64,000 nucleotides of DNA from Flavobacteriales bacterium (GCA_002862785.1 PKDZ01000037.1:1-64000); one strand, 5' to 3'. Positions 25,401 to 39,784 are shown, counted from the stretch's first letter. Numbers and translations are program-made. Notes: a model not told the origin generated them from the sequence alone.

Positions 25401-25643
25401 ATGCAAGATTTGAACCGCCCCAAGGTCCGAGTGATCGCCCTCGGCAAGAACGGACAGCCCTCCGGCCAGAACGGCGAGGAGCGCCATTCTCGACTCCAGC
25501 GTCAGATGGTCATCCTCATGGGACTCCTTTGGATGTTGGCCTTTGCAACCGGATGCAGCCGCAACGGCAAGAATTGCAGTGCCTACGACGGTGTGCGGCT
25601 CGAAGTGGCCGCCACGGCCCAGCCTGCGGCCGTTCAGAACTGA
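25401..25643 (+). CDS. small putative lipoprotein
   Basis: MVILMGLLWMLAFATGC lipobox followed by NCSAYDGVRLEV; N-terminal extension of uncertain reality. Confidence 0.5.
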   Translation: MQDLNRPKVRVIALGKNGQPSGQNGEERHSRLQRQMVILMGLLWMLAFATGCSRNGKNCSAYDGVRLEVAATAQPAAVQN

Positions 25644-27343
25644 AAGTAGATGAAGGGCGTTCCGCCGGCGGCGAGGACGGCCATGGCCACCACCACAGCT
25701 GCGGTGGCCGCCGCAACTTGGAGACCGAGCCCCGCCTGCACGAAGGCGGCGCGATAGCGTGCCTTCCACCGGGAAGGGAGCAGGTGGATGATGTACCCGA
25801 GCCCCATGACCGCAAAGACATGGCCGTAGTGGCCCAGCACTTCGGTGATCACCGCAACTGGAGTGGACGTCGTCAGGCGGGAGAGCACGAGGTTGGCTGA
25901 GGCCCATTCGGCCTGCAGGTCATGCTCCGTGTCGAAGGAAGCCCAGCTGGTGTGGGAGGCCGTCCGGAACCAGATGCGGGTGAACGTGATGAAATGGAAG
26001 GTGAGCAGGACGGCCACAGCCCGCTTCCAGACGCGGTCTTTCCGTTCCCAGGGGCTCACCTTCCGCCACAGCTTGTAGACGGTGATGCCCAAGCCGTTGA
26101 GGCCACCCCAGATGACGAAGTTCCAGCTCGCTCCGTGCCACAGTCCGCCCAGCAGCATGGTCATCCAGATGTTGATGTTGGTGATCACCCACCGGTGGAA
26201 GCGGGGGATGCGGGCCATGGCGATGCCCCCGCCAACCAGGCCTCCGGCAATAAGGCCGAGCGTGGTCAGGCCGGGCCGCAGCAAGACGACGAAGGTGAGC
26301 AGGAAACTGGCACTGATGGCCGTGAACCAGGAAGCCGACCGGTTGCCGCCCATGGGGATGTACAGGTAATCCTTGAGCCAACCTGAAAGGCTCATGTGCC
26401 AGCGCCTCCAGAAATTCCCGCAACTGTCGGCCTTGTAGGGGCTGTTGAAGTTCTGAGGCAGGCGGTAGCCCATGAGCAGGGCGACCCCGATGGCCATGTC
26501 GGTGTATCCGCTGAAGTCGGCATAGACCTGGAGGGAATAACCATACAGGGCCATCAGCATCTCGAAGCCGCTGTGCGCTTCCGGGGCCGCGAAGACCCGG
26601 TCGTTGAAGTTCACGGCGATCCAGTCCGCCAGCAGCACCTTTTTCAGCAACCCATTGAGGATCCAAAACCCGGCGAGACCGACCGTGGCTCGGGTGACAC
26701 GGCCCGGATTCAGGATCTGGGGCACGAACTCCGCCGCGCGGACGATGGGGCCGGCCACGAGCTGGGGGAAGAAGGAGACGTAGAAGCCGAAATCGGTCAA
26801 CCGCTTCAGAGGCTGGACGTGGCCTCGGTGGATGTCCACTGTGTAGCTGATGGTCTGGAAGGTGTAGAAGCTGATGCCCACGGGCAACAGGATGCGGTCG
26901 ACCGACCACGTTGTGCCGAGTGCGGCATTGGCCCCCACGGCCAGCCAGTTCCTTGGAATGATGTGGCTCCCTGTGGCTCCATTCCACGCATCGGTCAAGA
27001 AGTAGGTGTACTTGAAGTAAAAGAGCAGTCCGAGGTTCAGGGCGATGCTCAGGGCAAGCCATGCGTTGCGGCCCCGGGTCGAATTCGACCGGGCGATGCG
27101 GTGCCCGATCAGGTGGTCACTGAAGGTGGAGAAAATCAGGATGCCCACGAACCAGCCGGAGGTCTTCCAATAGAACAAGAGGCTGGCGAGGAGCAGCCAT
27201 CCGTGCCGGAGTGCCCGATGGCGGTCCCGGTTCCAGAGCCCGTCCACGAGGAGGACGCCCACGAGGAACACCCAGAACCCCGAATCGAGGAAGGTCCATG
27301 GCGCACCGGCATCGTGGGCGAGGAAGGGCATCCAGTCCATCAT
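25634..27343 (-). CDS. MBOAT-family O-acyltransferase (AlgI/PatA-like)
   Basis: GLWHGASWNFVIWGGLNGLGI, FSGYTDMAIGVALLMGYRLPQNFNSPYKADSCGNFWRRWHMSLSGWLKDYLYIPMGG. Confidence 0.95.
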   Translation of the reverse strand: MMDWMPFLAHDAGAPWTFLDSGFWVFLVGVLLVDGLWNRDRHRALRHGWLLLASLLFYWKTSGWFVGILIFSTFSDHLIGHRIARSNSTRGRNAWLALSIALNLGLLFYFKYTYFLTDAWNGATGSHIIPRNWLAVGANAALGTTWSVDRILLPVGISFYTFQTISYTVDIHRGHVQPLKRLTDFGFYVSFFPQLVAGPIVRAAEFVPQILNPGRVTRATVGLAGFWILNGLLKKVLLADWIAVNFNDRVFAAPEAHSGFEMLMALYGYSLQVYADFSGYTDMAIGVALLMGYRLPQNFNSPYKADSCGNFWRRWHMSLSGWLKDYLYIPMGGNRSASWFTAISASFLLTFVVLLRPGLTTLGLIAGGLVGGGIAMARIPRFHRWVITNINIWMTMLLGGLWHGASWNFVIWGGLNGLGITVYKLWRKVSPWERKDRVWKRAVAVLLTFHFITFTRIWFRTASHTSWASFDTEHDLQAEWASANLVLSRLTTSTPVAVITEVLGHYGHVFAVMGLGYIIHLLPSRWKARYRAAFVQAGLGLQVAAATAAVVVAMAVLAAGGTPFIYFQF

Positions 27344-28557
27344 GGATTCAGGGCTTGGTCAAGGGCCGCGCGCACGAGGGTATCGTACAGCAACTCGCCG
27401 ATGAGTTCATAGCCGGTGCGGTTGAAGTGAAGGTGGTCCGTGGCGGCGAACCCCACCTCGCGAAGCCGCTCGATGCTGTGGGCCCCTCCGAGAGCGCCGT
27501 AGAGGTCCCAGCAGGCCACATCCAGTTCTTGGGCGAGCGTGAGCATCGTCTGCCGGACCCGCTCGGCATTGGGGTTGTGTCGCCTCCGGTAATGGCTGTC
27601 GTTGTTGGTGATCAGCAGAATCTCAATCTCAGGCCGGGCTTCTCGGAGCCGGAGGATAAGGTCGGCATAGCGTTCAGCGAACCGGTGTTCCCGAAATCGG
27701 TCGGGGGCCATGTGCGCGTCATTGATGCCCCAGGCGAGGATGGCCAGATCCGCTGGGCATTCGGCGAGCTGGGTGCCGAGGTGGGGATGGCGCAACCAGG
27801 CCGCGGTGCTCGCGCCGTTGCCGCCCAAGTCGTGGAAGACCAGGGCGGCGTCTTCCTCCTTCACCCAGACCCCGTGCAGCCGCGCCAGGCTGTCCGGTGT
27901 CCACAAAAGCAGGGTGTCCGCCCCGCTGTCCGCCCACGCCCATTGGTGTTCGGGCGGATTCAGGATCTCCACCCCGGCGATGCACCCGGGGCCGTGGGAT
28001 TCTCCATTCCACAGCCTCACCGTGTCGGCGCCGAGGGCTGAGGCCTCGAGGCCGGTCAACCCCCATTCTCCGTCGTGCCGCCGGTGGGCGGAACGCTGGC
28101 CCGTCCATCGGGCCTGACTGGCCCACCGCACCTGTGGGGGGCCGTTCTCTCCGGCCAAGCGGTGGGGAGGGAGGACGCCCCGGCTCACGATGAGATCCGG
28201 CCGGTCCTCCGACAGGCGCTTGCGAAAGGTCCACCCGATGCGCCCAGCTTGCACATGGGACCCCCCGAAGTGGAGTACGGAAAGGGCTTCTCGCCCTTCC
28301 TCGAGAGCGTGCTCGAAAAGCAAGTGGCGGAATTGGTCGAGGAATTGCGCGATGTGTTCCTGCCCGACGATGCCCGTGGATTCACCACCGAGGAAAGTGA
28401 GGGCGTCGGATCGGAGTGGATCGGTCATCACCGTTCCAGCGGCCAGTTCGACCGACTCCGCTTCGCTCGCAGAACGGTCCTGTGCACGAGTTGGCCCCAA
28501 GGCGAGGAAGAAGGCCGGGATGGCCAACATCACATTGCAGCGCACCTCAATCATCAT
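27340..28557 (-). CDS. secreted SGNH/GDSL-like hydrolase
   Basis: Signal peptide; block I HFGGSHVQAG, block III AWGINDAH, block V DHLHFN. Confidence 0.85.
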   Translation of the reverse strand: MMIEVRCNVMLAIPAFFLALGPTRAQDRSASEAESVELAAGTVMTDPLRSDALTFLGGESTGIVGQEHIAQFLDQFRHLLFEHALEEGREALSVLHFGGSHVQAGRIGWTFRKRLSEDRPDLIVSRGVLPPHRLAGENGPPQVRWASQARWTGQRSAHRRHDGEWGLTGLEASALGADTVRLWNGESHGPGCIAGVEILNPPEHQWAWADSGADTLLLWTPDSLARLHGVWVKEEDAALVFHDLGGNGASTAAWLRHPHLGTQLAECPADLAILAWGINDAHMAPDRFREHRFAERYADLILRLREARPEIEILLITNNDSHYRRRHNPNAERVRQTMLTLAQELDVACWDLYGALGGAHSIERLREVGFAATDHLHFNRTGYELIGELLYDTLVRAALDQALNP

Positions 28558-30241
28558 TGGGTGCGGGGAGTTGCAGGGGCACGGAGGAGGACGGACGGCG
28601 CTCGATTCCCTTCATGGCCGGGGTTCGCCCCCCATTTTCCCACCGTCTGAATTCGGCCCAGAAGGCCCGATCGAGCCATTCGCCCACCTGGCGTGCCCCG
28701 CGTGGAGTGAAGTGGACGTGATCTGGTCCCGCCAACGGTGGTTCGGAGGCGACCCAGGCCGGCATGCTGCCCAAACCGCCCATGGCGACGAGCAAGTCCC
28801 AATGGGCCACGCCCGCATCGAGGCTGGCGTCACGGATGGCGGTTCGCACGGCATCCAACTGGGGGAAGGGGGTCCATTGTGTGCCCGTTTTCTCGGCCAT
28901 GTCCGAGGGGCCGATGACCAGGATGGCCGTCTCTGGGGCCAGGGCCTGAAACAATGCAATCTGACGTTTGAACCATCCGCCATAGCGCACCGCGGACAGC
29001 GAGTCTCGGGTGTATGGGACAGTGTTGCCTCCGAATTGAAGGACGATGAGGTCGGGTTCCAGCCGTTTGAGCTGGGTGCTGAAGGGGATGCGCGCCAATT
29101 TCCGAAACAGCGTGCCGGAAGAGCCTCGCATGGCCACTGAATGCCATTGGGTCCCCTGTCCGACTGGATGAAGGGCAAACAGGCGGGGAGGTCGACCCGA
29201 GAAGCACAGTTGAACGGGGGTCCCTCCGGGTTCCATCCCCGACGAGGGCAGGGTGAGCACACCGGGGAGGGTGCCCGGTTGGAGCGTGTCGACCGGAAGG
29301 CCGTCCACCAGGACTTCGCAGAGGGTGTAAACCGTATCGTGCCAGAGGTCAATTCGGTCCCACCGGGCAAATGAGCCTGGACTGCGGCGTTCGGGTCCCA
29401 CGTCGATGCAGGAGGGGGTGGAGGAGGAGTCCGCCGTGGCGTAACTGGCGAGCAGGCCGTAGTTCTCGTCGAGGTCTGTCGAGTCGCGCCGGCCGAAGCG
29501 GGTATGGCGTTTCCATGGACCGCGGAGCGCTTGTCGAAGGGAGAAACTCTGGACGAGCGGAACCGGGGGCTGGATGCCCGGGCCATGGCCGCCCCAGCGT
29601 TCCTGCCAACGCTGCCGAATCGTTCCGGAAATGCGGTCGCCCTCAATCTGGCTGTCTCCGTAATGGAGGACGTGAACTGATTCTCCCCGGTCCAGCTTGG
29701 CGAACAGGTCATGGAACGCCGGCTCTTCCTCCGGAGGAATGCCGATGCGGAGACTGCCCGGAATCCAATCGCCTGTTTCGGGCGTAGCGGCCGCGTTGGG
29801 TTCCGGGCCAGCCGAAACCGCCGTGGACGATGGAGAGGGGTCGGGGTCGGGATGGGCCGCGTCCATCTGTGGCTCCTCTTGGCGGGCTGCGACTGCGGAG
29901 TCAGGGGGCGGGGACGAGGGCACCACAATGCTGGAGTCGGCCTCCATGGAGGGGCGGTGTGCCGTGTCTTGGGCTTCGATGGCGGAGAGTTGTTCCTCGT
30001 ATCGCTCGAGCAAGGCTTCGACGTCATCGGGCTTCCATTGGGGAATGATGGTGGGCTGCGGGTCGGAGGCCCACAAACCATCCCAAGCGGACGGTGTTTC
30101 GATGCGAACGGTGTGCCCGGCGATGGTCCATCCCTCATCGGGACAGGCCCAGGCCAGAAGTGCCGAGGCTCCGCCGACGGCAAACAAAGCGAGGACCGGT
30201 CGCCAACGGGCTTCGCGTGAGGGGGAATCTGGCGCGCTCAC
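28547..30241 (-). CDS. membrane-anchored SGNH/GDSL hydrolase
   Basis: N-terminal TM; block I HYGDSQIEGD, block III QFGGNTVPYTRD, block V GPDHVHFTPRG; GTG start overlapping upstream stop (GTGA). Confidence 0.85.
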   Translation of the reverse strand: MSAPDSPSREARWRPVLALFAVGGASALLAWACPDEGWTIAGHTVRIETPSAWDGLWASDPQPTIIPQWKPDDVEALLERYEEQLSAIEAQDTAHRPSMEADSSIVVPSSPPPDSAVAARQEEPQMDAAHPDPDPSPSSTAVSAGPEPNAAATPETGDWIPGSLRIGIPPEEEPAFHDLFAKLDRGESVHVLHYGDSQIEGDRISGTIRQRWQERWGGHGPGIQPPVPLVQSFSLRQALRGPWKRHTRFGRRDSTDLDENYGLLASYATADSSSTPSCIDVGPERRSPGSFARWDRIDLWHDTVYTLCEVLVDGLPVDTLQPGTLPGVLTLPSSGMEPGGTPVQLCFSGRPPRLFALHPVGQGTQWHSVAMRGSSGTLFRKLARIPFSTQLKRLEPDLIVLQFGGNTVPYTRDSLSAVRYGGWFKRQIALFQALAPETAILVIGPSDMAEKTGTQWTPFPQLDAVRTAIRDASLDAGVAHWDLLVAMGGLGSMPAWVASEPPLAGPDHVHFTPRGARQVGEWLDRAFWAEFRRWENGGRTPAMKGIERRPSSSVPLQLPAPNDD

Positions 30242-31590
30242 CGGGTGGGAATTCGAATGCGCATGCCCGGGCGGAGGTCTTCCGGAGCCACCTCGTTGAG
30301 GTCGAGCAAATCGACGAGATCCACTCCCGGGTGATCCCGTGCAATGGACCAATAGGACTCTCCGGCTTCGACGGTGTGCCACGTCCATGAAGTGGCGTCG
30401 GTGGAGGAAGCGGGTGATGCGGGCTGGGAGGTCTCCGGCGGGATGCCACCACGCAGGCTCAAGGTCTGACCCACCCGGATCAGGTCACCCTCAATCTGGT
30501 TCCATCGACGGATATCCTCGATGCGGAGTCCCACGCGACGGGCGATGGTGCCCAGGACATCTCCGGGCCGCACGGTGTAGTTCCATGTGAGGGGCGCGGA
30601 GGGGAAAGGTCGGGCGCCACACCACCCGGCCGCAGTCGAATCCGAGGCGAGCCAGTCCCGTCTGACTTGCACAGAAGGGCGGGACGCGGTCCGTCCGATG
30701 GAATCCGTGGTGAACCAAGGATTTTCCGTTCGCAAGGCCCTTAGGTCCCATTCCGTATCCCGGTGGTGACTGAAATACAGCGGGGTGGCTTCTGCGCAAG
30801 AGAAAGGCACCCAGTCGCGCTCACGCAACGCCCAGAGGGCATGGAGCCGGTCTCGGCGAAAGTTGCGGTCCACTTGGAGCATGACCCGAAGCAGGTGCAG
30901 CCAACCGAGTAGATCCGCCTCCACAGCGTCGGCGTCGAAGGCCTGACCGGCCTGTCCGCCCCGGACCAGGGAGAGCACCTGTCGCATGGGCGATTCCGGA
31001 TGCACATCCTGGACTTGGGCAATGCGCAGGCAGGCGGCCTGGGCCATCCGTCCCGGCACATGGCGTTCGTCCCATCCCCGTCGGATGTCGAGCCCGAGTG
31101 CCAAGGCGGTCGGCAGGTCCATGGCCCACGCTCCGGCCCTCCGTCCCGGGCCGTAGTAGGCGGCATCCCATCCCGTCAGCACCATGGGCAGAACCGCCCA
31201 CTCAGAGGGAAGACCGGCCTCGGAGAGGGCACTTTCCATGGCCGGTCGGTGACGGTCGGAGGCGGCTTGGACGAGGCGAAAGCGGAGCATGCCATCGGCG
31301 AGGAGGCGGTCCAGGGCGCGGTCGGCATGATGCTCGGCGAGGGGCAGGGCTTCGAGCTCAGCGATGAGTCGGTCGGCCCAGGAGCTGTGTCCTCGGACGC
31401 CGTCCACCATCAGTTCGGGTAGCATCGGACCTAGGATGCAGTCCGGTTCCAAGGCTTCCAATTCTGCAATCCACGGTGACTCCTCGAAGGCGGAAATCAT
31501 GGAGGACCAACCCGACAGATCGGGTTGGGCCAAAGCCGCTCCTGTGCAGGGGAGGAGCAGTAGGAATCGGATGAAATCGGGCGTTTTCAC
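30238..31590 (-). CDS. secreted MltD-like (degenerate SLT) protein with two C-terminal LysM domains
   Basis: SLT-like segment LSEAGLPSEWAVLPMVLTGWDAAYYGPGRRAGAWAMDLPTALALGLDIRRGWDERH; LysM WNYTVRPGDVLGTIARRVGLRIEDIRRWN and WHTVEAGESYWSIARDHPGVDLVDLLDLN. Confidence 0.85.
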   Translation of the reverse strand: MKTPDFIRFLLLLPCTGAALAQPDLSGWSSMISAFEESPWIAELEALEPDCILGPMLPELMVDGVRGHSSWADRLIAELEALPLAEHHADRALDRLLADGMLRFRLVQAASDRHRPAMESALSEAGLPSEWAVLPMVLTGWDAAYYGPGRRAGAWAMDLPTALALGLDIRRGWDERHVPGRMAQAACLRIAQVQDVHPESPMRQVLSLVRGGQAGQAFDADAVEADLLGWLHLLRVMLQVDRNFRRDRLHALWALRERDWVPFSCAEATPLYFSHHRDTEWDLRALRTENPWFTTDSIGRTASRPSVQVRRDWLASDSTAAGWCGARPFPSAPLTWNYTVRPGDVLGTIARRVGLRIEDIRRWNQIEGDLIRVGQTLSLRGGIPPETSQPASPASSTDATSWTWHTVEAGESYWSIARDHPGVDLVDLLDLNEVAPEDLRPGMRIRIPTR

Positions 31591-31667: not shown

Positions 31668-33272
31668 ATGAGCGTCGATTCCATCCACGAAATGGGACCT
31701 CGGGAACGCCAAGCGTTTCTCGAGGCAGAGGTGCGTCGTCTCCAGGCCAAGTGCAACCGCTATGAAGACATCGTGGCCAACATGGCCCTCGGCATTCTGG
31801 AGGTGGACACGCAGGAAAGGATTGTTCGGGCAGATGAGCGCTTCTGTTCGATTGTGGGGTATGCGGAATCCGAATTGAGGGGGAAGAAAGCCTCGGAAGT
31901 CCTCCTCTCTGGAGAGGAGGTCGATCAGATGGACGATCGGACAAGGGCCAGGAATTCGGGAGAGGCCGGAGCGTATGAAGTCCCCATCACCACGGCCGAT
32001 GGCGGTCGGAAGTGGTTGTTGATCAGCGGCGTTCCCAAACGCAATGCGGAGGGGGACATCATAGGCTCAGTGGGCATTCACCAGGACATCACCGAGCGGA
32101 AGATGGTGGAGGAAAACCTGCGGGAGTCGCGGGACGAGGCAAGGGCGGCCGAGAAGGCCGAGCGGGAATTCCTGACCCGGATGAGCCACGAGATCCGCAC
32201 CCCGATGAATGCCATCATGGGCATGGCGGACCTGCTGGGCGACACTCAGCTCGATTCGGAACAGAACAACCTGCTCACGTCCATTCGGGGGGGAAGCGTT
32301 CTCCTGAAGGGGCTGCTTGATGACATGCTGGACCTCGCCAAACTGGAGGCGGGCCAGCGGGTTTGCCACAAAGAGGCGACCCTCATCGAACCGATTGTCG
32401 AACGCGTGACCACCATCTTCCACTCCCAACTCAAGGAGAAGGGGGTTCGACTGGAGGTCCGCTTTGATGCCGATCTCCGAGTTGGTTGGAAGGTGGATCC
32501 CTCCATTCTGACCCAGATCCTGATCAACAGCCTGGGCAATGCGGTCAAGTTCACCGATTCCGGAACCATTGGCCTCACCCTGTCCCTCGAAGGGGGAGGC
32601 CCCATGGAGCCTCATTTGGTGCTGGAGGTGACCGATTCGGGCCTGGGAATCGACCAGAAGGACCTTGAGGTCGTATTCGAGCGCTTCAGCCAGGCATCCA
32701 ATCGCGAGGTCCGCCATGGCGGTACCGGACTCGGGCTCGCCATCGTCAAAGAACTGTGTGCCTTGCATGGAGGCGAGGCTACGGTCACGAGCACATTGGG
32801 GCAGGGCAGTACGTTTCGATTCACCCTGGCCATGGAGCCCGTGCTCGAAGAAGCGGATGCGCCGGTCACAACCGAAACCGCCCTGCTTGAGGGACATCGA
32901 ATCCTGGTGGTGGAGGACAACGATGTGAATCGATTCTTGATCCGGACCCTGCTCGGAAAATGGAAGGCGGACGTCACGTGTGTGGAGAACGGCCAGGAGG
33001 CCCTCAACCTGATGACCGAGAACCGGTTTGATCTCGTGTTCATGGACATTCAGATGCCGGTGATGGATGGTCTTGAGGCGACGCGACGGTTCAGGAATGT
33101 GGAGCGCGAGGAGAACCGCGAGCCGACTCCGATTGTCGCCCTAAGCGCGTTTGCCTTCGACCACGACAAGGAGGCCGCCAAGCAGGCAGGGGTGAACCTG
33201 CACATGTCCAAGCCCTTCAGTCGGGAGGAGTTGCAAGCCGTGTGCCTTGGCTTCCTTTCCCCTGATTTGTAA
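31668..33272 (+). CDS. PAS-containing hybrid histidine kinase (PAS-HisKA-HATPase-REC)
   Basis: FLTRMSHEIRTPMNAIMGMADLL, GLGIDQKDLEVVFERFSQ, GGTGLGLAIVKEL; REC VVEDNDVNRFLI...VFMDIQMPVMDG. Confidence 0.95.
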   Translation: MSVDSIHEMGPRERQAFLEAEVRRLQAKCNRYEDIVANMALGILEVDTQERIVRADERFCSIVGYAESELRGKKASEVLLSGEEVDQMDDRTRARNSGEAGAYEVPITTADGGRKWLLISGVPKRNAEGDIIGSVGIHQDITERKMVEENLRESRDEARAAEKAEREFLTRMSHEIRTPMNAIMGMADLLGDTQLDSEQNNLLTSIRGGSVLLKGLLDDMLDLAKLEAGQRVCHKEATLIEPIVERVTTIFHSQLKEKGVRLEVRFDADLRVGWKVDPSILTQILINSLGNAVKFTDSGTIGLTLSLEGGGPMEPHLVLEVTDSGLGIDQKDLEVVFERFSQASNREVRHGGTGLGLAIVKELCALHGGEATVTSTLGQGSTFRFTLAMEPVLEEADAPVTTETALLEGHRILVVEDNDVNRFLIRTLLGKWKADVTCVENGQEALNLMTENRFDLVFMDIQMPVMDGLEATRRFRNVEREENREPTPIVALSAFAFDHDKEAAKQAGVNLHMSKPFSREELQAVCLGFLSPDL

Positions 33273-35254: not shown

Positions 35255-38200
35255 ATGCACACATTGCACTCCAAAGCGCTGTTTGCGCTGCTCCTGCTGA
35301 TCGGGACTGTGACCACCGGGTCCGCCCAGAATGCCACCTTGTTGTCCGATGACCACGACGGTATCGTCGTCCGGTTCGACTTCTCCGATCCAATCCTGCA
35401 CGAAGTGACCACCCCCGACGGGGTCGCCGTGATGCCCCGGGTCCTCGGGGACACCCCCATGCTTCGCGCTGGCGCTCCGGACCTGTCCAAGGTCGACGCC
35501 ACCTTGATGATCGGGGCGACCGTGGGCACGGCCCTTGAAATCGTCGAGACGGAATTTGTCGACCTCACTGAGGTGGACGTGGTGCCGAGCAAAGGCAACC
35601 TCTACCGCAACGTCGATCCGGCGTCCGTGCCCTTCACCGAAGGCGCAGTGTATGCCGAGGATGCGTTCTACCCGCAATCCGTGGCCGCACTGCAGACGCC
35701 CTTTGTCCAGCGCGGCGTGCGCGGCCAAAGCGTCTGGGCACATCCCTTCCAATACAACCCGGTGAGCCGGGTCTTGCGGGTGCACACCTCCATCACGGTC
35801 CGCATCGTGGAGACGGAGATGGCTCCGGTCAATCCCGCCGTGGCTCCGGTCCGTCTCTCCGCTGAATTTGCCGACCAGTTCGGACGCCGCTTCCTCAATG
35901 CGGCCAGCGTCAGCGAGCGCTACGACTACATCGAGGAGCACGGCAAGGTGGTCTTCGTGACGGACGCCATGTACGACGACGTGCTGGCCCCGCTCATCCA
36001 ATGGAAAATCGAGAAGGGACTGACGACCCAGGTCGTCTACGCGGCGGACTTCGGCAACGATTACGACGCCATCAAGGATTTCCTCGCCGACCAGTACTTC
36101 AACGAAGGGTTGACCCACGTCATCCTCGCCGGAGACGAGGACCAGGTGGCCGCCACGCTCGTGACCAACGGCGGCGGCTCCGGATACTGCGATCCCTGCT
36201 ACGGCTACGTGGAGGGGGACGACCACTACCCGGAGTTCTTCGTCGGCCGCCTGCTCGTGCACGATGTGGACGAGATGGAGACGCTGGTGGAGCGGACGCT
36301 GGAATACGAGAAGAATCCGTTCCTCGGGGAGGAGTGGTTCAACATCGGTGTCGGCATCGGATCCAATGAGGGCGCTGGCATCGGCGACAACGGAGAAAGC
36401 GATTGGCAGCACCTCAACGCCATCAAGGACAAGCTCATCGACTACGACTTCCAGGAGGTCTGGGAACTGTACGATGGCAGCCAGGCCGGCAACAGCCCGA
36501 CCGGCGGGGAGACGGCCGACGAAGCGGGCAACCCCAACGCCAACGACATGATCGAGCTGGTGAACAAGGGGCTGTCCTTCATCAACTACACCGGCCACGG
36601 ATACCACGGAGGCATCGCCTCGAGTGGATTCGACATCAACGCCATCGGCCAGACCACCAACAACGGCATGTACGGCTTCTTCGTGCCGGTGGCCTGCTGC
36701 GTCGGCGACTTCGACGAAGGCGAGGGGTCCGGAGACTGCTTCGGTGAGGTGTGGATCAAGCACACCTCCAATGGAGAGCCGGCCGGCGGCATCGGCGGCG
36801 CGTTCTCCAGCGTGCTCCAAAGCTGGGCACCGCCGATGCGCGGTCAGGACGAGATGACGGACCTCGTGGTCGAGGACGGCGAAGTGGAGATCCGCCACAC
36901 CTTTGGCTCCATCGTGGCCCATGGCTGCTCCGGCATGATCGACAGCTACGGAGGTGGCGGCGAGGAGATGATGGACACCTGGTGCATCTTCGGCGACCCG
37001 TCCGTCGTGCTCCGCACGGCCTTCCCGGACCAGTTGGCCCTGTCCCACCAGGAGGTCTACTTCCTCGGCACCCCGACCATCGAGGTGAGCTGCCCGACCG
37101 AGGGCGCGCTCGTGGCCATCACCCAGGGCGACCAGATCCTCGGCACCGCCTTTGTGGAGAACGGCGTGGCCACCATCACCCTGGACGAGCCGCTGGGCGT
37201 TCCCGGGGACTACCTCATCACGGGCACCGCCTACAACACGATTCCCTACCAGTCGACGGTCCAGGCCGTTCCGGCCGATGGACCGTACGTCCTGAGCAGC
37301 GGCAATGCGGCCTTCGATCCGACTGGAGACAACGACGGCATGGTCGACCAGGGCGAGAGCATCGACCTCGAGCTCGACCTGTCCAACGTGGGCATCGAAA
37401 CTGCCACCGACGTCATGGTGACCATCACCACGGCCGACGAGTGGGTGACCATCACCAATGGGGCGGTCTCCGCCGGCGACATCGCCGCAGACGGTTCCCT
37501 GACGCTGTCCGGCTTCGCGTTTGACGTCACACCCGGCGTGGCCGACCAACACGTGGCCCTGTTCGACGTGCTCATCACCGACGCTGACGGCAACGAGTGG
37601 ACGACGTCCTTCCCCGTGACCCTCAATGCGCCCCATTTCAGCATCGTCGATCTCGTCGTCGAGGACAGCGGCAACGGCATCCTCGAGAGCGGGGAGGAGG
37701 CCAACCTCGTCTTCACCATCGTCAACGACGGCCACGATGGGGCACCGGGTGCGGTGGGCATCCTCGCCTTCGAGCACCCGGATGTGACCATGGGCTTCAA
37801 CGGAAACTACGAGATGGACATCATCGAGCCCGGCGGGTCCTTCACGATGTCCTACCCGGTCACCGTGGCCGAGGACGCCGGCCTCGGCGGACTGCTTCCC
37901 ATCACCTTCGCGGTCAACACGTCGGGTCCGGACAACGCGGAATTGTACCTGACCACGGCGGACTTCTTCGAGCCGATCAACCTCATCATGGAGACGTGGG
38001 AGACCGGAGACGACCAGAGTTTCCCGTGGGCCTACGACGGCAACGAGGACTGGTTCGTGTCGACCAACAATCCGTACCAGGGCGACTTCTGCATGGAGAG
38101 CGGCGACATCGGCGACAACCAAAGCACCGACCTCACCATCGCGTTGGAGTTCTTGGGCGACGGCGACCTGACGTTTGCGCGCCGCGTGTCCACCGAAGAC

Positions 38201-39784
38201 GGCTGGGATTTCCTCCGTCTGGAGATCGATGGGGCCATGGTGGCCGAATGGTCGGGCGAGCTCGATTGGGCCGAGGAGTCCTTCCCGCTGACGGCGGGAT
38301 TCCACACCATCACCTGGTCCTACGAAAAGGACAACATCATCTCCGGAGGCGCCGACGCCTGCTGGGTCGACGACATCGTCCTCCCGCCGTTCTGCTTCAT
38401 CGACGCCGAGATCACCCAGAGCGGAGCCCCTGGCATCCTGTGCCCGGGCGAGAGCGTGACGCTGACCACCAACAGCGGGTTTGAGACCGCGTGGAGCAAT
38501 GGCGCCACCGAGACCAGCATCGAGGTGTCCGAGGCGGGCACGTACAGCGTGACCCTCACCGACGACGCCGGATGCAGCTTCACGTCTGACCCGGTCACCA
38601 TCGAGGTGCTCGAGCCCACCGCGCCGACCGTGGAGGTCGACGGCCAACTCGGATTCTGTGAAGGCAGCACGGTCACCCTCACCGGCCCCGAAGACGGGGT
38701 GTGCGTCTGGAACGTGGGCGTCGAAGGCCCCTCCATCGAGGTGGGCACCAGCGGCACCTTCCAGTTGACCTTCACCGACGCCTGCGGGGCAGAGAACGTG
38801 AGCGACGAGATCGTGGTCGACGTGTACCCGATTCCGGAAGCGCCGACCACGGAGGACATCACCATCGAGAACCCGGCCGAAGTCGACCTCAACGCCACCG
38901 GCGACAACCTGCTGTGGTACGAGAACGAAGACGACCTGATGCCGTTTGGCGCAGGACCGGATGTACCCGTCTACGTGGGGGCGACCACCACCTTCTGGGT
39001 GGAGAGCGAGTCCACCAACCCCGGCACCACCGGCACGGGCGCCAAGGCGGACCGCGACGAGGAGAACGGCCAGCACCACACCAGCTCCGGCTTCTGGCTC
39101 GTCTTCGACGCCTACCAGGGCCTGACCATCGAATCGGTGAAGGTCTTCGCCAACGGCGAGGGCAACCGCACCATCGCCTTGGTCAATGACGCCGGCACCG
39201 AGCTCGAGAGCGTCACGGTCAACATGGCCGACGGCGAAAGCGTGATCGACCTGGGCTTCTATGTCCCGGCTGGCGAGGGCTACGGCCTCCGCTCCACCGA
39301 CGACAACCCGCAGCTCTGGCGCGACGGCATCGGGTCCAACCCCGAGTACCCCTTCGCCCTCGGCGACTTCGGCGCCATCACCGGCACGAGCGTCAACGGC
39401 GCCAACAGCCTCAACTACTACTACTTCTTCTACGACTGGACGGTCAGCGTGGACGCGGTGGGCTGCGCCTCCGAGCGCGTGCCCCTGACGGTCACGGTCA
39501 CCAACCCGGTCGGCGTCGGCACCATCGACGGCCTCGCCGCCGTGGAGGCCTTCCCGAACCCGACGTCCGGCGCCCTGACGCTCGACCTCGACCTCGGCGC
39601 GACGACCCTCGACCTCGACGTCGCCCTCTTGGACGCTAGCGGCCGTACGGTCCTCTCCACCAACTGGAGCGGCCAGACGACCGGCCAACGCACCCTCGAC
39701 CTCACCGCCCTGGCGCCCGGCCTCTACACCGTCCGCCTCACGGACGGCCAGGGCCAATGGCGCCTCCCCGTCGTCCGCCACTAA
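35255..39784 (+). CDS. gingipain-family (C25) cysteine peptidase with T9SS type A sorting domain
   Basis: 1509 aa; INYTGHGYHGG (His) and VPVACCVGDFD (Cys) dyad region; C-terminal EAFPNPTSGALTLDLD...GLYTVRLTDGQGQWRLPVVRH. Confidence 0.93.
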   Translation: MHTLHSKALFALLLLIGTVTTGSAQNATLLSDDHDGIVVRFDFSDPILHEVTTPDGVAVMPRVLGDTPMLRAGAPDLSKVDATLMIGATVGTALEIVETEFVDLTEVDVVPSKGNLYRNVDPASVPFTEGAVYAEDAFYPQSVAALQTPFVQRGVRGQSVWAHPFQYNPVSRVLRVHTSITVRIVETEMAPVNPAVAPVRLSAEFADQFGRRFLNAASVSERYDYIEEHGKVVFVTDAMYDDVLAPLIQWKIEKGLTTQVVYAADFGNDYDAIKDFLADQYFNEGLTHVILAGDEDQVAATLVTNGGGSGYCDPCYGYVEGDDHYPEFFVGRLLVHDVDEMETLVERTLEYEKNPFLGEEWFNIGVGIGSNEGAGIGDNGESDWQHLNAIKDKLIDYDFQEVWELYDGSQAGNSPTGGETADEAGNPNANDMIELVNKGLSFINYTGHGYHGGIASSGFDINAIGQTTNNGMYGFFVPVACCVGDFDEGEGSGDCFGEVWIKHTSNGEPAGGIGGAFSSVLQSWAPPMRGQDEMTDLVVEDGEVEIRHTFGSIVAHGCSGMIDSYGGGGEEMMDTWCIFGDPSVVLRTAFPDQLALSHQEVYFLGTPTIEVSCPTEGALVAITQGDQILGTAFVENGVATITLDEPLGVPGDYLITGTAYNTIPYQSTVQAVPADGPYVLSSGNAAFDPTGDNDGMVDQGESIDLELDLSNVGIETATDVMVTITTADEWVTITNGAVSAGDIAADGSLTLSGFAFDVTPGVADQHVALFDVLITDADGNEWTTSFPVTLNAPHFSIVDLVVEDSGNGILESGEEANLVFTIVNDGHDGAPGAVGILAFEHPDVTMGFNGNYEMDIIEPGGSFTMSYPVTVAEDAGLGGLLPITFAVNTSGPDNAELYLTTADFFEPINLIMETWETGDDQSFPWAYDGNEDWFVSTNNPYQGDFCMESGDIGDNQSTDLTIALEFLGDGDLTFARRVSTEDGWDFLRLEIDGAMVAEWSGELDWAEESFPLTAGFHTITWSYEKDNIISGGADACWVDDIVLPPFCFIDAEITQSGAPGILCPGESVTLTTNSGFETAWSNGATETSIEVSEAGTYSVTLTDDAGCSFTSDPVTIEVLEPTAPTVEVDGQLGFCEGSTVTLTGPEDGVCVWNVGVEGPSIEVGTSGTFQLTFTDACGAENVSDEIVVDVYPIPEAPTTEDITIENPAEVDLNATGDNLLWYENEDDLMPFGAGPDVPVYVGATTTFWVESESTNPGTTGTGAKADRDEENGQHHTSSGFWLVFDAYQGLTIESVKVFANGEGNRTIALVNDAGTELESVTVNMADGESVIDLGFYVPAGEGYGLRSTDDNPQLWRDGIGSNPEYPFALGDFGAITGTSVNGANSLNYYYFFYDWTVSVDAVGCASERVPLTVTVTNPVGVGTIDGLAAVEAFPNPTSGALTLDLDLGATTLDLDVALLDASGRTVLSTNWSGQTTGQRTLDLTALAPGLYTVRLTDGQGQWRLPVVRH

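Follow-up and report, generated by a model that had tools for sequence, protein, structure and literature searches.

The stretch of DNA analysed here, hereafter the window, comprises 64,000 nucleotides from a Flavobacteriales bacterium (GCA_002862785.1, PKDZ01000037.1:1-64000); the genome to which it belongs (G000) is of Flavobacteriales type, measures 2.4 Mb and is 98.5% complete. Four genes of the minus strand, at 25634-31590, had been singled out in an earlier note, written from the sequence, as a candidate envelope O-acetylation system. We propose that they probably constitute one peptidoglycan O-acetylation operon of Bacteroidota type, in which an MltD-like protein lacking its catalytic residues, the pseudo-MltD, acts as the glycan-binding partner. 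The genes are the following:

31590-30238, minus strand: LysM/MltD-like protein P0004 (pseudo-MltD), 450 amino acids, GTG start
30241-28547, minus strand: SGNHb, P0003, 564 amino acids, GTG start
28557-27340, minus strand: SGNHc, P0002, 405 amino acids, ATG start
27343-25634, minus strand: PatA-like MBOAT, P0001, 569 amino acids, ATG start

Gene order, coupling and distribution

As the earlier note had stated, the four genes overlap at each junction: P0004 and P0003 share GTGA (4 bases), P0003 and P0002 share ATGATGATTGA (11 bases), and P0002 and P0001 share ATGA (4 bases). Relatives were compared over 80 named Bacteroidota loci, which were picked by best match to the SGNHb profile and are not a random sample; at the same three junctions their median gaps are -1, -11 and -1 bases. 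For P0003 we chose the GTG at 30241 over an upstream ATG, because the ATG of an orthologue (L035) overlaps the same junction and the transmembrane helix then corresponds to residues 9-32. The ratio of nonsynonymous to synonymous substitution rates (dN/dS) of all four genes is 0.09-0.16 against the nearest relative; this purifying selection excludes a chance arrangement of open reading frames.

The full order LysM-SGNHb-SGNHc-MBOAT is found at 46 of the 80 named loci, in Flavobacteriales, Cyclobacteriaceae, Bacteroidales and others, and is thus conserved well beyond close strains; a restriction to close strains, which the earlier note would have counted as a refutation, is not borne out. Seventeen further loci have the order SGNHb-SGNHc-MBOAT and seven have LysM-SGNHb-MBOAT; at most of those that remain, the genes are unlinked or the cluster is interrupted by the end of a contig. 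Since a strong SGNHb match was obtained in only 47 of 297 genomes sampled evenly across the phylum, the system is patchy in Bacteroidota. Three loci (L147, L150, L173) come from metagenome-assembled genomes titled Chryseobacterium gleum and Chitinophaga pinensis, environmental species labels that are possibly misassigned.

We also followed co-occurrence in 80 genomes, namely that of the window and its relatives. Of these, 51 contain SGNHb. The orthologous MBOAT was recovered at E<=1e-80 in 48; in G019 and G038 a weaker MBOAT adjoins SGNHb, and G041 has SGNHb without MBOAT. Both genes therefore occur together in 50 genomes, SGNHb occurs alone in 1 and neither is found in 29. Several genomes in which SGNHb and SGNHc are unlinked still carry the MBOAT. 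At three loci (L056, L060 and L064, from G034, G045 and G026), SGNHb is separated from SGNHc and MBOAT and comes right after a gene for a secreted protein of about 650 residues which reads like a repeat-type envelope protein. Reduced clusters, in which SGNHb and MBOAT are accompanied only by a short LysM protein, were observed at L063, L066, L085, L088, L106, L109, L114 and L124; six of these genomes were searched with the SGNHc profile and SGNHc was not detected anywhere in them. Among 16 sampled members of the genus, four (G002, G004, G007, G014; G004 is 96% complete, G007 only 67%) are devoid of SGNHb and of the orthologous MBOAT. A loss of SGNHb alone in these genus members was rejected, as the genomes without SGNHb also have no orthologous MBOAT, and the acetylation system may have been lost there as a unit.

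An MltD-like protein without the catalytic residues

P0004 is composed of a signal peptide, a transglycosylase domain of MltD fold and two C-terminal LysM domains (residues ~338-379 and ~406-448; Pfam match 3.8e-24). Its MltD-like region has no Pfam match, while 29 of 37 family members match the SLT model. The AlphaFold model (predicted local distance difference test, pLDDT, 85.9) has as its first match in the PDB the MltD of P. aeruginosa, 8rhf (Foldseek E 2.9e-11). The LysM domains and the MltD-like fold attributed to this gene at the outset are thereby confirmed. Indeed, P0004 shares its fold and C-terminal LysM with P. aeruginosa MltD (8rhe, 8rhf, 8rhi) and with the free-standing, intact MltD of the window genome itself, on contig C20 (G000:C20). 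In contrast to the latter, which keeps the catalytic Glu, GLWQFM and AYN, the operon protein has lost all three: Leu138 (codon 31177-31179) replaces the Glu of the ES motif, and Leu208-Val209 replace the Tyr-Asn of AYN.

The same situation was observed in 51 Glu-less cluster orthologues. None of the 51 retains the Asn of AYN or the catalytic Glu, whose place is taken by Leu, Ala, Cys, Ile, Val, Thr or some other amino acid, and the equivalents of Gly153, Trp155, Asp174 and Arg176 (G-W and D-x-R) are invariant in all 51, which span several orders. The whole active site is retained by 28 of 28 free-standing MltD/SLT proteins of the relatives and by 8 of 8 Glu-bearing cluster proteins. In a tree calculated without the catalytic columns, whose root is not known and in which several rows have long branches, all the Glu-less proteins lie on one side of one branch (100/98), so that Glu was lost in one change of state; repeated independent losses were rejected on this ground. 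The dN/dS of the lytic transglycosylase domain is 0.10 against the nearest relative, a constraint no weaker than that on the SGNH genes, and the domain must therefore have been kept for something other than cutting. A decaying pseudogene was rejected for this domain on the dN/dS and on the invariant structural residues.

In eight clusters, mostly of Bacteroidales, the lead gene is an intact, Glu-bearing MltD. Loci with an intact lead gene include L126, L139, L157, L172 and L173, and ParB and DUF5683 proteins occur among the genes that flank the clusters. The intact clusters may represent a housekeeping mltD with acetylation genes beside it; the captured pseudo-MltD could come from such a locus, and the dead copy may have arisen by duplication of that neighbour. 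We found no description of a pseudo-MltD in acetylation clusters in the open-access literature (most subscription journals were outside the scope of the search), and a dead MltD leading such a cluster appears not to have been described before.

The nearest experimental precedent is LtgA of N. meningitidis, whose association with Ape1 in a complex increases the activity of the latter; when helix 30 is missing from LtgA, the peptidoglycan of the strain is hyperacetylated (PMC7083599). The parallel is that a lytic transglycosylase fold supports a peptidoglycan O-acetylesterase there, and a defective transglycosylase alters O-acetylation, as the pseudo-MltD may do here. However, LtgA is natively active, not of MltD type, and its defective form is a laboratory construct, whereas the protein considered here is naturally dead and encoded in the same operon, and its complex is putative.

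The MBOAT and the two SGNH proteins

Pfam agrees with the earlier assignment of an MBOAT, two SGNH proteins and two LysM domains. P0001 matches MBOAT at 3.5e-21 and has, like PatA, the MBOAT fold with the invariant catalytic His (His403, in GLWHG). In PatA the acetyl group is borne by the Tyr of a C-terminal FXYXXF motif (PMC12148441). P0001 ends in FIYFQF, with Tyr566 as the putative acyl carrier, and this Tyr is conserved without exception in the 37 of its 39 homologues whose C terminus is complete. The nearest matches of P0001 in structure databases are DltB, which is also its best family model, below the cut-off (160 versus 375 bits). The MBOAT of one genus member (L040 4657-6378, G001:C86) has no C-terminal FIYFQF; homology ends at query residue 533 and it looks like a frameshift or an assembly error. 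A second MBOAT of the window genome (L223 653-2116, minus strand, G000:C68) ends in EFIYFAF and adjoins a protein with a GDSH motif, forming a separate MBOAT-SGNH pair.

Both SGNH proteins match GDSL_2 (P0003 2.7e-9, P0002 1.8e-13), of which the only other member in the window genome lies on contig C18, and both have a complete Ser-Asp-His triad and the block III Asn. The block I motifs proposed for them also proved correct, since GDS in the membrane-anchored SGNHb and GGS in the secreted SGNHc are invariant in the respective family alignments. In the AlphaFold model of P0003 (pLDDT 81.3), a transmembrane helix is followed first by a helical stretch and a disordered linker, then by an SGNH domain of Ape1 type that carries a beta insert; the active-site residues are Ser197, Gly373, Asn406, Asp507 and His510. 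Ape1 structures fill the first five places among the Foldseek matches of this model in the PDB (E 2e-20 to 1.5e-19, with a TM-score on target of 0.75-0.80), among them those of C. jejuni (8gld, 2.2e-20) and N. meningitidis (4k3u, 1.1e-19), and the next-best fold reaches only 4e-7. The model thus shows the SGNH fold with an inserted beta domain that characterizes Ape1, and the P0003 profile likewise matches the Ape1 chains of these two species. P0002, with an invariant GGSH in block I and Ser100, Gly248, Asn279, Asp374 and His377, is assigned to Ape1 by profile alone (N. meningitidis 3.7e-31, C. jejuni 6.5e-25); about 147 residues separate its blocks I and II, and it aligns to Ape1 across the insert.

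The SGNH-SGNH-MBOAT part is of a kind that is already known. In 2005 Weadge et al. reported clusters of the type ape1b-ape1c-pat from B. fragilis, B. thetaiotaomicron and P. gingivalis; the peptidoglycan O-acetylation that they measured was 69.4% in B. fragilis and 27.0% in B. thetaiotaomicron (PMC1199599). The SGNHb-SGNHc-MBOAT genes follow the same order in the same phylum, also encode Ape1-type SGNH proteins with no ape2/patB, and form an O-acetylpeptidoglycan (OAP) cluster, with an MBOAT adjoining at least one ape-type SGNH gene. The differences are that the present operon begins with a LysM/pseudo-MltD gene, of which the consulted passages of the 2005 paper make no mention, and that Ape1c, as described there, is without a segment of roughly 100 residues after motif I, whereas P0002 keeps an insert-sized segment; the equivalence rests on order and family, and a one-to-one identity of P0002 with Ape1c is not thereby given. 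With PatA-PatB-Ape1 of Neisseria and Campylobacter (PMC12148441, PMC6174289), the operon has in common an MBOAT with FXYXXF, an Ape1-fold SGNH and a likely peptidoglycan substrate, but it differs by the absence of PatB/DUF459, by gene order and content, and by the coupled pseudo-MltD.

Division of labour, substrate and alternatives

PatB is the recognised peptidoglycan acetyltransferase of Gram-negative bacteria. The protein called Ape2 in the 2005 paper was later shown to be this transferase, of family DUF459 (PMC6174289, PMC9487903). No match to DUF459 (PF04311) above the curated cut-off was obtained in P0002, in P0003 or in the whole window genome; the transferase is therefore SGNHb, SGNHc or something unrecognised, and probably one of the two Ape1-like SGNH proteins. 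Ten genomes in which SGNHc is undetected genome-wide keep SGNHb and the MBOAT, which favours SGNHb as the transferase. The weak similarity to DUF459 favours SGNHc, and these two lines of evidence are in conflict. The pairing of a transferase with an esterase suggested in the earlier note is plausible, and the roles given here to the two SGNH proteins are provisional. Judging from the families, we consider P0003 as the candidate acetyltransferase partner of the MBOAT, a transfer from MBOAT to SGNHb being somewhat favoured, and P0002 as a candidate O-acetylesterase or second acetyl-handling protein, with even chances for the esterase role.

In the scheme that we propose, the PatA-like MBOAT would transfer the acetyl group from cytoplasmic acetyl-CoA to Tyr566 of FIYFQF, from which the membrane-anchored SGNHb would hand it on to muramic acid in the peptidoglycan. 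Secreted SGNHc would most likely take the acetyl group off again, or perform a second transfer step. The pseudo-MltD, with its kept fold and its two LysM domains, would bind glycan strands without cutting them, and position or stimulate the SGNH enzymes on the wall; we lean slightly towards such a scaffold role. Peptidoglycan is very probably the substrate, because P0003 has the fold of Ape1, the profile of P0002 matches Ape1 and the operon includes a LysM/MltD partner, and on the same sequence and model data the peptidoglycan role suspected from the start gains support.

Several points weigh against this scheme. A canonical PatB was not found in the window genome by the DUF459 search, and the weak similarity to that family, which sits on SGNHc rather than on SGNHb, argues against SGNHb as the transferase. 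The change of the block II Gly to Ser or Asn, a feature of PatB (PMC12148441), is absent from both proteins; in alignment, Gly373 of P0003 and Gly248 of P0002 coincide with the Gly at this position in N. meningitidis Ape1. Concerning the lead gene, it is not universal: SGNHb-SGNHc-MBOAT stands without a recognised LysM gene at 17 of the 80 loci, and in some families only a short LysM protein is left and the MltD domain is gone; the scaffold role is putative.

The roles of the two SGNH proteins could be exchanged, SGNHc being a distant PatB and SGNHb an Ape1 esterase served by the pseudo-MltD as Ape1 is by LtgA. We regard this arrangement as rather unlikely, even though the LtgA-Ape1 precedent, the Ape1 fold of SGNHb and the coupling of the pseudo-MltD gene to SGNHb all speak for it, as do the weak DUF459/PatB matches, obtained for 13 of 21 SGNHc homologues (best 7e-7) versus 1 of 24 for SGNHb; in a DUF459 search of 60 genomes, the coordinates of the three weak matches likewise fall on SGNHc genes (G020, G031, G067). 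It is countered by the ten genomes without detectable SGNHc, by the N-terminal transmembrane anchor of SGNHb, as predicted for PatB (PMC12148441), and, weakly since the loci were selected by SGNHb, by the fact that no locus with MBOAT and SGNHc without SGNHb was seen. It appears improbable that the operon acetylates another envelope or secreted polysaccharide, as AlgI/AlgJ/AlgX or DltB/DltD do, with the LysM protein only tethering the machinery to the wall. The principle of an MBOAT-plus-SGNH acyl relay is common to all these systems, such pairs act on many polymers (PMC12148441), and DltB is the best model of the MBOAT and the only MBOAT structure matched. However, SGNHb has an Ape1 fold, with matches (~1e-19 to 2e-20) far ahead of the next fold (4e-7), the loci are not those of alginate or teichoic acid, and the second MBOAT with its GDSH partner is available for another polymer; in addition, the peptidoglycan of Bacteroides that carry a cluster of the published type is O-acetylated (PMC1199599). 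The genes around the cluster do not form polysaccharide loci either: 90 flanking proteins from 26 clusters include 2 family-2 glycosyltransferases, the others being ParB, DUF5683, LytTR and unrelated families. On these flanks and the window neighbours, a setting in an exopolysaccharide locus, as for AlgI/AlgJ/AlgX, was rejected; the earlier note had named an exopolysaccharide locus in relatives as a possible refutation.

As for the lead gene, an active enzyme is conceivable at that place, given that intact MltD leads eight clusters of Bacteroidales and others, and acetylation could then be coupled to wall cleavage through a relocated acid residue. With the Glu replaced and AYN broken in 51 of 51 Glu-less orthologues, and with the proteins that have the Glu set apart in the tree from those that do not, we hold this to be very improbable. 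Scarcely less so is a decaying MltD paralogue hitch-hiking with the operon, an idea in line with the relatives that keep only the short LysM protein, but at variance with the constraint on the transglycosylase domain and with structural residues invariant over several orders.

Two neighbours lie on the plus strand of the window. At 31668-33272, divergent from the operon and separated from it by a very short spacer, is a PAS hybrid histidine kinase with a receiver domain, for which a regulatory link is possible. The region 35255-39784 encodes a secreted protein of 1509 residues; in translation it looks like a large protein of cysteine-peptidase type that bears a sorting tail at its C terminus.

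Returning to peptidoglycan O-acetylation, patB is absent from the clusters described in 2005, yet the peptidoglycan of Bacteroides is heavily O-acetylated (PMC1199599). We tentatively suggest, as an idea with somewhat less than even prospects, a machine common to Bacteroidota in which an Ape1-fold SGNH protein replaces PatB as the acetyltransferase and a dead MltD of single origin is the dedicated peptidoglycan-reading subunit. With the present gene set, including the clusters reduced to SGNHb and MBOAT, the question of which SGNH protein carries out the transfer becomes directly testable. The dead MltD would represent a lytic transglycosylase that is inactive by nature and linked through its operon to the control of acetylation; the idea drawn from LtgA and Ape1 would thereby reach a family retained across several orders.

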